NCBI GenBank assembly: GCA_903822005.1
Contig: CAIJNL010000012.1
Location: forward strand, 1-45,689
Length of the DNA: 45,689 nt
DNA from: an uncultured Nitrospiraceae bacterium
GTDB lineage: Bacteria > Nitrospirota > Thermodesulfovibrionia > Thermodesulfovibrionales > Dissulfurispiraceae
Direction: 5' to 3'
Part shown: positions 9,773 through 16,789 of the stretch, piece after piece
Layout of the letters: each line of letters begins with the position of its first letter
Numbering within the stretch: the first letter of the stretch is position 1
The notes under the pieces: generated by a model
The model's input: only the letters and a program-made list of their open reading frames with translations
Database searches by the model: none
What the model was told of the DNA's origin: nothing
Position numbers and translations under genes: made by a program

Positions 9773-10462
9773 ATGGACATCTCTAAAAACCTTATAAGGA
9801 TACCCCTGTTCTCATCGCTAAGCGAAGATGAGATCGCCGAGATACGCCGCTGCATGGAGATCCGGGCGTTTAAAAAAAGAGAGACTATCTTTTCCGAAGG
9901 AGATCCTCCGAGCAGGTTCTTTGTGCTTATTTCGGGCAAGGTAAAGATCACGAAGATGTCACATGAAGGTAAAGAGATCATTATAGAACTTATCTCAAAA
10001 GGGGATTTCTTCGGCGGTTTTGCGGTTTTAAAGGGATTTCCATACCCGGCTAATGCGGTTGCAATGGAAGATTCGAGTGTGCTGCGCATAGGCCGGCCCG
10101 ATCTGCTGCGGATAATAGAGAGGTTTCCAAACATCATGTACCAGATCACTGCGCACCTTTCGGAACGCGTCAGGGAATTCCCTGATACGCTTAAGAATAT
10201 CGCGCTGGAAAGGGTAGAGTCGAGGATATCATCTCTACTGCTCAAGCTGGCCGAAAAAACGGGCAAAAAGACAGCAACCGGAGAGACAGAGATCGATATG
10301 AAGCTTACCAAACAGGATATCGCCGAGATGGTAGGCACAACTGTAGAGACCTCGATCAGGGTAATGAGCAGGCTTACGAAGGCCGGACTGATTAAAAATA
10401 CGGGCGGCCGGATCATAATAAGGGACAGAAAAGGGCTATTAGCCGCAGTGAATCCTTCGTAA
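9773..10462 (+). CDS. CRP/FNR-family transcriptional regulator
   Basis: Effector-binding transcription factor of 229 residues. The N-terminal cyclic-nucleotide-binding-like barrel covers about 8-125 (FSEGDPPSRFFVLISGKVKI, GDFFGGFAVLKGFPYPANAVA). A dimer helix follows, then a winged helix-turn-helix at about 178-205 (LTKQDIAEMVGTTVETSIRVMSRL). There is a single Cys, so it is not a classical [4Fe-4S] FNR; the ligand is unknown. It lies 51 bp after gspC and 281 bp before the por operon, in the same direction, and could act on either. Confidence 0.9.
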   Translation: MDISKNLIRIPLFSSLSEDEIAEIRRCMEIRAFKKRETIFSEGDPPSRFFVLISGKVKITKMSHEGKEIIIELISKGDFFGGFAVLKGFPYPANAVAMEDSSVLRIGRPDLLRIIERFPNIMYQITAHLSERVREFPDTLKNIALERVESRISSLLLKLAEKTGKKTATGETEIDMKLTKQDIAEMVGTTVETSIRVMSRLTKAGLIKNTGGRIIIRDRKGLLAAVNPS

Positions 10463-13998: not shown

Positions 13999-14976
13999 CT
14001 ACGATGGTACGATCAACTTGATGGCGTCTTTGACTACATCAATCTTTGCTGGAGCTCTGCCTGCATAATCGCCGTCTATCTGCATGCGGCAGGAGCCCTT
14101 GATCGAGATTTCCTCAGTCCGGAAATAGCTTATGTCTTTCAATCCGAGTGATCTGCCCGAAACAATGGCCATCAGCAGACGCATAAGGTCGACCTTCCTT
14201 TTCTTGTGAAAGAGAAAGACATAGAGATAGGGGGACTTCAGATCAGCGTCTGGTGTAATTGAAAAGTTGCCGCCGTAGGCCGCGGCCTTGCTTATGATAG
14301 CAATATATCCGGAAGCTCTAAGCGAGCCTTCTGTTAATTGAATGTGGTCCCTATGGACCTGGAACCTTCCACCTTTGATATCTTCGGGTTCCTTAACGGT
14401 GGCCTCAATTTCGAGTTCCTCAGGCCTGTAGCCGATTAGTGCTCCAAGACCGCTTAAGACATAGGCCGCCTGGCCCGACAAATTCTTGAGTCTAACGTTG
14501 ACGCCATAAACAGCATCACCGTCGTAACCTAATCCTGCCATCAGCAGGAAGTGGCGTGAAACGGCAGGCTTCTTTTCGAGGTCTGAGCCGGGCTGGTAAG
14601 TTATTCTTCCCAGGCTTACGCATTCTGCCCTGCCGGTAAGAGCTGCTTCGAGCGCCTCCCGGGTATTCAGCGGTATGCCGATTTCGCGCGCGAGCACAGA
14701 GGTTGTGCCGAGTGGAAGAATGGCCATAGGGGTTTCAGAGTGCAGCAGTCCGTTTGCAACTTCGTTATAAGTACCATCTCCGCCCGCGGCAAGGACCATG
14801 GTATTCGGGAGCACTTTTGCATCCTTTGCAAAGGATTCGGCATCTCCGCGCCTGGAGGTGAGCATCACATCCACTTCAAGTCCACGGTTTCTCATATAGG
14901 CCTCGGCAGCGCATATCTTTTTGTATGCCCCGCCGCCTGCAACAGGATTTCCTATGAGGACGATCTTTTTTGTCAC
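13999..14976 (-). CDS. Diacylglycerol/lipid kinase family protein (YegS/DgkB-like)
   Basis: Cytoplasmic or membrane-associated lipid kinase of 325 residues. It has the N-terminal GNPVAGGG loop, the nucleotide-binding motif AAGGDGTYNEVANGL (near residue 65) and the C-terminal MQIDGDY block. The likely substrate is diacylglycerol or a related lipid; this cannot be settled here. The GTG start overlaps the bioW stop by four bases, so the two genes are co-translated although no direct pathway link is known. Confidence 0.88.
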   Translation of the reverse strand: MTKKIVLIGNPVAGGGAYKKICAAEAYMRNRGLEVDVMLTSRRGDAESFAKDAKVLPNTMVLAAGGDGTYNEVANGLLHSETPMAILPLGTTSVLAREIGIPLNTREALEAALTGRAECVSLGRITYQPGSDLEKKPAVSRHFLLMAGLGYDGDAVYGVNVRLKNLSGQAAYVLSGLGALIGYRPEELEIEATVKEPEDIKGGRFQVHRDHIQLTEGSLRASGYIAIISKAAAYGGNFSITPDADLKSPYLYVFLFHKKRKVDLMRLLMAIVSGRSLGLKDISYFRTEEISIKGSCRMQIDGDYAGRAPAKIDVVKDAIKLIVPS

Positions 14977-15740
14977 CTTTTTATCGACTCCAGGATAACG
15001 GCCCTTCTTTCGAGGTAATTGATCGTTTTTTCGATATCTGCATCAGGCCGGAGGAAAAAGACCCTTCCGCCATGCATCTCACCAAGGCGTTTGATATTCG
15101 GGATCCGCAGATATCCTGTGGCCCGGGATGCCACATATCCCGTAGTATAGTCCGGATCGTCCGAGATGCAGATCTCAGCAATGATATCTTTGCAGGATAC
15201 GACCTTGGATGCCAGTATAAGGGCCTCTTTAACCGTTACCGTGTAAATTTTCATGGATGCCAGTCTTTTGTGCAGTATTTTTTCAGACATGCTGTCTATT
15301 CCGAGGCGCGATACCCTTATGCCGCGCGCCTTGTCAGGTTCGAGACGCCTTCCTGATTGGGACGATATCAGCGAAGCTCCGCGCATTGTTTTTTCGGACC
15401 TAAGCACCCTGAGCGCTGCAGCCATGGCACGGTCCGAAACACCGAGTGCAGAAACCCTGCTGACGATTATGTTCCAGGCAGATTCTGGTGACAAGCAGTC
15501 TGCCGTAGTGACGGGCAGAAGGGGTGCTTTGACCGGACGCTCTATTATTGACTCCAGGGTGATGACTATTGTGTCCGGCCGGCCCCGGGGGTGTTCGAGT
15601 GCCCTTGCAATATAGTCAGAGCATATCCTGTCAATCTTTTCGGCGCCATATATGCCTTCGGCTCCGGAAATATGGAAATCCGCTCCAGGTCCGGCTTTCG
15701 GAGGAAGTTTTGTTGAGGCCTTCATTCGTATGTTCCACAT
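14973..15740 (-). CDS. bioW: 6-carboxyhexanoate-CoA ligase (pimeloyl-CoA synthetase) BioW
   Basis: Activates pimelate to pimeloyl-CoA, the entry step of one biotin route. It has 255 residues from the chosen ATG. BioW patterns are visible: MWNIRMKAS at the start, DFHISGAEGIY, and RVSRLGID. The start at 15740 matches the usual BioW N-terminus; a longer frame from 15788 would add a hydrophobic stretch not found in the family. No strong ribosome site precedes it. Biotin synthase (bioB) lies elsewhere at 32898-33866, and bioF, bioA and bioD are not in the window. Confidence 0.87.
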   Translation of the reverse strand: MWNIRMKASTKLPPKAGPGADFHISGAEGIYGAEKIDRICSDYIARALEHPRGRPDTIVITLESIIERPVKAPLLPVTTADCLSPESAWNIIVSRVSALGVSDRAMAAALRVLRSEKTMRGASLISSQSGRRLEPDKARGIRVSRLGIDSMSEKILHKRLASMKIYTVTVKEALILASKVVSCKDIIAEICISDDPDYTTGYVASRATGYLRIPNIKRLGEMHGGRVFFLRPDADIEKTINYLERRAVILESIKR

Positions 15741-15882
15741 AAGGGATATAATACAAAAAAAACACATCTTAATGCGCTGTAATCTCACTATGAAGAATGA
15801 GGGACGGACAAAAGGAAATTTTTATAACTGTGACAGCCGGTGAATGCCGGAAGGTGGAACTCCAAACAGCAGAAAAACCGCG

Positions 15883-15957
15883 TTACGCTTTGAACGAAAA
15901 AACGTACGCTGTGGCAAACAGAGGGAACATAATGACGAACAGGTTAAGAAAGTCCAT
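15883..15957 (-). CDS. 24-residue hydrophobic mini-protein
   Basis: Short open frame starting MDFLNLFVIMFPLFATA and ending FSFKA. Almost the whole length is one hydrophobic helix, so it is probably a single-span membrane peptide. An AAAGGGG ribosome site lies eight bases before the ATG. Upstream are a TATACT -10 box and a CRP-type palindrome. Size and type recall small subunits of membrane complexes, but I do not recognise the family. It lies between the regulator gene at 16041-16757 and bioW, all in one direction. Confidence 0.55.
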   Translation of the reverse strand: MDFLNLFVIMFPLFATAYVFSFKA

Positions 15958-15995
15958 GATATATACCCCTTTCTTTTGTGATCAGGCTTACACCC

Positions 15996-16044
15996 TGATT
16001 CAAGTATAAAGCAAAAGAGAGGGGCGGCAGGTGACAAGGGTCAC
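15996..16044 (-). promoter_or_regulatory. CRP-type operator and -10 box ahead of the mini-protein gene
   Basis: On the minus strand TGTGA-CCCTTG-TCACC (16031-16045) matches nine of ten bases of the CRP half-sites. The inverted repeat is exact over 16031-16044, centred at 16037.5. A TATACT -10 box at 16003-16008 predicts transcription from about 15996 and there is no good -35 box. The palindrome is then centred near -41.5, the class II activator position. It overlaps the stop codon of the regulator gene. Confidence 0.6.
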
Positions 16045-16757
16045 AAAACGAGTGATTTTTCGAGGAACAGGGGCTTAAGCACGATATCCCGGTTTTCTAT
16101 GATCTCTATCTCACCGTCCTTTATAAAACGGTTCATCAGGCGGGTGACGGTTTCACGGGCGAGATGGGAATAGTCCGCTATATTCTGGTGCGTGAACTTG
16201 GAGCTTATGACAGTACCCCGCGCGTCCTTGTATCCATAATATCCGCTGATTATCCTGAGCACTGCCCGAACCCTGCTCTCGGCATTAGGAAGGCTGAGGA
16301 CCTTTATCATCATCCATGCCTCTCTGAGCCGCGAGCAAAGTATCAGTATTGCCTGCTTGGCGACCTTTTCGTTTTTGAGCAGGTAGTCCTCGAAATCTTT
16401 TTTGGATATTATGACTATGTGCGTTTCTTCGAGCGCTATGACGGATGCCGGAGACGTTTTTCCGTCGAGCAGGGCCATCTCTCCGAAAAAATCGCCCTTT
16501 TTATGTATCGCTACGATATGCTCCTTGCCGTCAAGTCCGGAATGGACGACCTTGACCTTGCCGGAAAGGATTACATACATGTAGTTAAGGGTGTCTTCTT
16601 CCAGAAGGATTATCTTGTTTCGTGAAAAATGTTTTTCAATGAATATATGGCTCAATTCGGAGAACTCTTTGTCTGAGAGGCCCTCAAAAAAAGGGATACT
16701 TTTCAGTAGATGGTTTGTTTTATCTTTTTTGCTTTTCCTGATGGCAGCTTTCAACAT
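16041..16757 (-). CDS. CRP/FNR-family transcriptional regulator
   Basis: Transcription factor of 238 residues. It has a cyclic-nucleotide-binding-like domain (about 20-140; ILLEEDTLNYMYVILSGKVKV, GDFFGEMALLDGKTSPASVIA) and a C-terminal winged helix with the recognition pattern FTHQNIADYSHLARETVTRLM. It has a single Cys, so no FNR-type Fe-S cluster. I chose the ATG at 16757 after GGGAGG; a TTG 11 codons earlier would place coding sequence over a perfect palindrome. It probably controls the mini-protein gene just downstream. Confidence 0.9.
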   Translation of the reverse strand: MLKAAIRKSKKDKTNHLLKSIPFFEGLSDKEFSELSHIFIEKHFSRNKIILLEEDTLNYMYVILSGKVKVVHSGLDGKEHIVAIHKKGDFFGEMALLDGKTSPASVIALEETHIVIISKKDFEDYLLKNEKVAKQAILILCSRLREAWMMIKVLSLPNAESRVRAVLRIISGYYGYKDARGTVISSKFTHQNIADYSHLARETVTRLMNRFIKDGEIEIIENRDIVLKPLFLEKSLVL

Positions 16758-16773: not shown

Positions 16774-16789
16774 TGCGGTTGTAACCGCA
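16774..16789 (-). promoter_or_regulatory. Palindrome before the CRP/FNR-family gene
   Basis: TGCGGTTGTAACCGCA has perfect seven-base arms. It lies 16 bp before the ATG of the regulator gene and could be an operator for autoregulation or a small RNA hairpin in the leader. Confidence 0.45.

Follow-up and report, generated by a model that had tools for sequence, protein, structure and literature searches.

Small single-span membrane proteins such as CydX, KdpF, and CydS occur in bacteria. The 24-residue frame described here resembles them in size (20-35 residues) and in its one hydrophobic span; unlike them, it matches no Pfam or NCBIfam family and is not linked to cyd or kdp genes. The promoter predicted in front of this frame resembles the class II promoters that CRP activates in Escherichia coli, such as galP1, where a TGTGA-N6-TCACA site, recognized through an RE..R helix, is centered at position -41.5 and replaces the -35 box. 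A class II site is defined as one that overlaps the -35 site or region (PMC5449483). A second system of reference is HcpR of Desulfovibrio, a member of the CRP/FNR family with the site wTGTGAnnnnnnTCACAw (PMC1274295), which shares with the regulator studied here a CRP-like site, the CRP-type R180, and the lack of the FNR cysteine motif. While HcpR controls hcp and frdX, the conserved target found here is a small membrane protein or peptide, and no hcp gene adjoins the regulator at the locus. A literature search yielded no comparable pairing of regulator and peptide from Nitrospirota; what we describe is a new peptide within a known kind of regulatory arrangement.

The regulator and its predicted promoter

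We analyzed a 45,689-bp stretch of DNA (the window) from an uncultured Nitrospiraceae bacterium and compared it with related genomes, including Nitrospiraceae bacterium fen_1308 (G001; PMYY01000092.1), the sole other species of the genus in the comparison. All features of the locus lie on the minus strand:

14973-15740 (-), bioW, 6-carboxyhexanoate--CoA ligase (Pfam BioW, 6e-75), the gene that follows the peptide frame in both species of the genus, G001 having the same order
15883-15957 (-), probable single-span membrane peptide of 24 residues, MDFLNLFVIMFPLFATAYVFSFKA (ortholog in G001 beside the ortholog regulator; pS/pN; unlinked relative in G026)
15966-15972 (-), AAAGGGG, ribosome binding site 8 nt before the peptide ATG (from the sequence)
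15996 (-), predicted transcription start (+1), inferred from the position of the -10 box
16003-16008 (-), TATACT, -10 box starting 21 bp after the palindrome, without a -35 box (from the sequence)
16030-16045 (-), CRP-type palindrome TGTGACCCTTGTCACC, TGTGA-N6-TCACC, predicted regulator site (from the sequence; position and spacing kept in relatives)
16041-16757 (-), CRP/FNR-superfamily regulator of 238 residues (Pfam cNMP_binding and HTH_Crp_2; ortholog alignment with E. coli CRP)

The regulator gene begins with an ATG at 16757 that is preceded by GGAGG. Its product joins an N-terminal cNMP-binding fold to a C-terminal Crp-type HTH (PF00027 cNMP_binding, 1.3e-25; PF13545 HTH_Crp_2, 1.2e-08; PF00325, 3.5e-06), the combination that defines the CRP/FNR superfamily. 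In CRP, the residues for the cAMP phosphate are Arg82 and Ser83 (sequence and numbering of E. coli); in the regulator, which is 26% identical to E. coli CRP, and in all of its aligned orthologs they are replaced by Ser or Ala, followed by Pro. With 54 bits against a cut-off of 266 (PRK11753), the protein falls short of the CRP equivalog, yet it possesses the corresponding DNA-recognition features, an RE..R helix paired with a TGTGA half-site: the helix RETV.R is invariant among the aligned orthologs and identical to that of CRP. Residues R180 and E181 are correlated with the half-site bases G3 and A6 (PMC1274295). The score against FNR is likewise too low (65 bits vs. 228), the site reads TGTGA and not TTGAT, and the N-terminal cysteine cluster of FNR is absent from the regulator, which contains one Cys in its whole length. 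Since the Arg/Ser pair that contacts the cAMP phosphate is replaced and the FNR cysteine cluster is lacking, the regulator probably does not respond to cAMP in the usual manner, nor to oxygen via a 4Fe-4S cluster. The initial annotation as a CRP/FNR-type regulator thus stands with respect to the superfamily domains and a CRP-like mode of DNA recognition, but does not extend to an FNR-type oxygen sensor, which the protein, judged by these features, is not.

A second CRP/FNR-family regulator is encoded in the window at 9773-10462 (+) and carries a VETS..R recognition helix; its apparent counterpart in G001 lies beyond a lipid kinase gene. About 16 bp upstream of the start codon of the first regulator, an inverted repeat with perfect 7-bp arms (TGCGGTTGTAACCGCA, 16774-16789) is a possible operator for the regulator's own expression; it is absent in G001.

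The 3' end of the regulator gene reads ...TCA CTC GTT TTG TGA, and its TGA stop codon is contained in the palindrome (16045..16030), whose center at 16037.5 falls at -41.5 relative to the predicted +1. A -35-box sigma-70-type promoter was not found at the regulator-peptide locus, so that site center, -10 box, and the lack of a good -35 box together correspond to the sequence features of a class II CRP-dependent promoter. The overlap with the stop codon, the distance of 41.5 bp from the start predicted from TATACT, and the missing -35 box had all been proposed in the initial annotation and were recovered from the sequence, with the palindrome extending over 16030-16045 instead of 16031-16045. 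When we searched the window for this site-21 bp-minus-10 pattern with one mismatch allowed, we obtained one match against 0.15 expected. Since 14 of 100 shuffled windows also contained at least one match, the composite pattern in the window by itself is only suggestive.

The promoter and its downstream genes in related genomes

The comparative evidence for the predicted promoter is decisive. Calling the regulator at E <= 1e-60 divided a family set of 31 genomes into 17 with and 14 without it. A palindrome and a -10 box follow the regulator gene in 15 of the 17 regulator-bearing genomes (fourteen tabulated loci plus G011, with a gap of about 22 bp); G017 and G025 are without a clear site of this kind. 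Among the 15 promoters tabulated, i.e., the fourteen behind the regulator and one promoter of G001 that is separated from it, the gap between palindrome and -10 box is exactly 21 bp in 12, the exceptions being G008 and G020 (22 bp each) and G024 (19 bp). The -10 boxes have 4-6 matches. The class II spacing first noted in the window is therefore a putative promoter geometry that is conserved across the family. Genome-wide, the composite pattern produced 25 matches in the 31 genomes, compared with 8 for a reversed control; 11 of the 25 immediately follow the regulator gene, and one more is the separated promoter of G001. Matches exceeded the control in genomes possessing the regulator (24 vs. 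3) and not in those lacking it (1 vs. 5), which indicates that the site follows the regulator.

In the family relatives, this promoter is succeeded by a gene for a membrane protein of about 78 residues (MIRLLKTIIFAWALFIAVSIIGGGGDLFR...), which has a single span at its N-terminus and a charged tail. We refer to this unnamed protein, which has no match in Pfam or NCBIfam, as SMP-a. Of the 17 regulator-bearing genomes, 13 contain it at E <= 1e-20, compared with 0 of the 14 that lack the regulator (Fisher 2e-5), a test that is not fully independent because several SMP-a sequences were part of the search model. The site is present at all 13 SMP-a genes and at the promoter position of none of the 17 other SMP-family copies that were read. 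An HU gene is inserted between promoter and SMP-a in G018, where its frame is disrupted, and in G026, and an HU remnant occupies this place in G003; in both G018 and G003 the promoter is intact. Beyond SMP-a, most SMP-a genomes, and also G001, carry a convergent, unnamed gene of 228 residues. None of seven other genomes examined contains it; three of these have the regulator but no SMP-a, and four have no regulator. A related group of small membrane proteins without the site, SMP-b (L125-L137, L141, L142), is mostly encoded, in most genomes of the family, behind a gene whose product has a LolC/LolE-type permease-like C-terminus.

Within the genus, this arrangement is altered. The SMP-a gene of G001 lies apart from the regulator, near bioB, and has its own site, TGTGAGCACTGTCACA, 21 bp before TACACT. 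SMP-a was not found in the genome under study, and its convergent 228-residue gene stands alone on another contig, without a site. An SMP-like gene on contig C41 of G000 was considered as a moved SMP-a and rejected; it is orthologous to another, site-less copy of G001, and its palindrome lies 179 bp before the start. In G001, SMP-a and the convergent gene have stayed neighbors, and the regulator with its terminal site is found elsewhere. What moved in this genus was therefore probably the regulator, which carried the site in its 3' end; the site at SMP-a of G001 would then have remained or been regained.

We also searched the genome under study, using sequence patterns only, for further members of a regulon. 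Sites matching with a single mismatch precede purM, trxB, a pilC-like gene, and others; none of these is claimed as a regulon member. Two loci carry the pattern in front of frames: at L061 (site at 1501; G000:C2:251148-251190), CGTGATCGTTGTCACA lies 21 bp before TAATAT and a 43-residue membrane-like frame, MLSRILRGQDIMAREIRYYVIPMFGIALVSLVCMATITSLLTR, and at L057 (site at 1501; G000:C2:480-522), TGTGAGCTTCATCACA lies 21 bp before TATACT and a frame beginning MIAPNVELLSVGFVALSICAVLTRKEQREKRTLRCKKC. In comparison to the global regulon of E. coli CRP, the regulator apparently has one main conserved target.

A probable 24-residue membrane peptide

The peptide frame runs from the ATG at 15957 to a stop codon ending at 15883 and contains the most hydrophobic 18-residue stretch among the 165 ATG frames of 20-35 residues in the window. 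In G001, the regulator (71% identical) is followed by the promoter, MDILTLCVVLLPIIACAYAFSFKA, bioW, and the lipid kinase gene, in this order. The G001 frame also encodes 24 residues, is 58% identical, has the same start and stop, and begins about 95 bp behind the regulator; it was the best match when all frames of the two intergenic regions were compared. The two frames differ at 6 first, 4 second, and 15 third codon positions (pS 0.75 vs. pN 0.23; Fisher 2e-4), a pattern which argues that the frame is under purifying selection. The promoter register is that of the window (TGTGACTTCCAACACT, 21 bp, TATACT), with a weak or decayed promoter-proximal half-site (8/10 consensus positions) and a TTGACC 15 bp upstream of the -10 box; in view of these two features, dependence on the activator may be relaxed at the G001 peptide promoter.

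We identified one further full-length relative, MDLISILMILLPLAGCIYAFNFKA in G026, which is located at a different locus and has its own ribosome site but no palindrome. Searches covering 396 genomes from the phylum, 176 from the order, and a collection of 84,980 species revealed no additional convincing members. Three genomes are thus known to encode the putative peptide, which is restricted to this genus, where both species have it linked to the regulator, and one unlinked copy. Other families of the order gave weak matches (E 0.0025-0.05), which we rejected after inspecting five loci, where the frames comprise 29-52 residues of the form LSLAMILLPIAAC and are antisense to a lepA-like gene in four cases. 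Matches in G022 and G013 were rejected since they lie inside a larger coding frame. A trimmed SMP-a was also considered and rejected, there being no profile similarity between peptide and SMP-a, and neither of the two matches a profile of the known small membrane protein families. The 24-residue, unannotated membrane peptide is probably real. By the positive-inside rule, it would probably reside in the inner membrane with its N-terminus outside and its Lys-bearing C-terminus in the cytoplasm.

These findings bear out the initial annotation in its description of a hydrophobic 24-residue frame with a good ribosome site and in its expectation that frame and palindrome, beside the same regulator, are kept in a close relative, although the promoter-proximal half-site of G001 is weak. 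Its view of a regulator-peptide pair is supported in this genus; the peptide is, however, not the ancestral partner of the regulator, since the same promoter elsewhere drives a different small membrane protein.

Proposed mechanism and its alternatives

The best explanation of these data, to which we assign a probability of about 0.74, is a local CRP-type class II activator whose output is SMP-a in most of the family and the 24-residue peptide in this genus. According to this model, the product of 16041-16757 would act without canonical use of cAMP. In the presence of its signal, a dimer would bind TGTGA-N6-TCACC at -41.5 and recruit RNA polymerase in class II fashion to a promoter that has a -10 box and no -35 box. 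This promoter would drive the ~78-residue SMP-a in most of the family and, in this genus, the single-span membrane peptide instead. That this regulator is the protein bound, and that it activates, we infer from promoter geometry and co-occurrence; in this genus, the peptide would be the physiological output.

The peptide could instead be a leader only, with bioW, 142 nt downstream, as the regulated product reached by readthrough. The order of peptide and bioW in both species and the failure to find an intrinsic terminator between them speak for this, but we consider it unlikely: in relatives the promoter serves SMP-a and not bioW, the peptide is selected at the amino-acid level and contains no run of regulatory codons, and the predicted RNA shows neither unusual structure (z -0.23) nor a match in Rfam, the grounds on which an RNA leader or sRNA was rejected as well. 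Moreover, an AT-rich, TATTATA-like box (15740-15760, minus strand) before the bioW ATG is kept in G001, and its conservation in both species suggests that bioW has a promoter of its own; bioW is probably separate from the regulator-peptide pair. The box is only about 7 bp from the ATG, as if the bioW mRNA were leaderless.

It is similarly improbable that the site is occupied by another CRP/FNR-family protein and that the adjacent regulator acts on different targets. The motif TGTGA-N6-TCACA is common within the CRP family, and first-look counts gave several CRP-family candidates in this genome, among them the one at 9773-10462. That protein, however, has VETS..R in place of RETV.R, and the composite site tracks the adjacent regulator, being scarce in regulator-less relatives that also possess CRP-family candidates. 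Repression in place of activation has still less to recommend it: CRP-family proteins can repress by occupying a promoter, but the 21-bp class II spacing, -10 boxes of 4-6 matches, and the missing -35 box are what activation needs. An accidental, untranslated frame, conceivable for so short a frame with so few relatives, is very unlikely given the identical length, start, and stop in G001, 58% identity, the excess of synonymous change (p 2e-4), and ribosome sites at all three copies.

Most likely, the regulator acts locally and independently of cAMP as a CRP-type activator of a single promoter, and the gene downstream of this promoter has been exchanged. More tentatively, and with the odds somewhat against it, activator and promoter could form a conserved "slot" into which different outputs (SMP-a, HU plus SMP-a, or the 24-residue peptide) are placed, with the peptide taking over the function of SMP-a in this genus, completely so in the genome under study, and acting on a membrane complex in response to a non-cAMP signal; that the peptide is a partner of or substitute for SMP-a is a guess. 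The analysis links the unnamed SMP-a and the unnamed 228-residue gene to one regulator, and adds a probable 24-residue protein, together with its predicted regulator, site, and transcription start, to the small number that comparative genomics alone has revealed. It points to a regulator-promoter unit that has persisted through changes of the small membrane gene following it. Where local CRP-type genes are followed by conserved class II sites, inspection of the DNA beyond these sites may offer a route to further unannotated mini-proteins.
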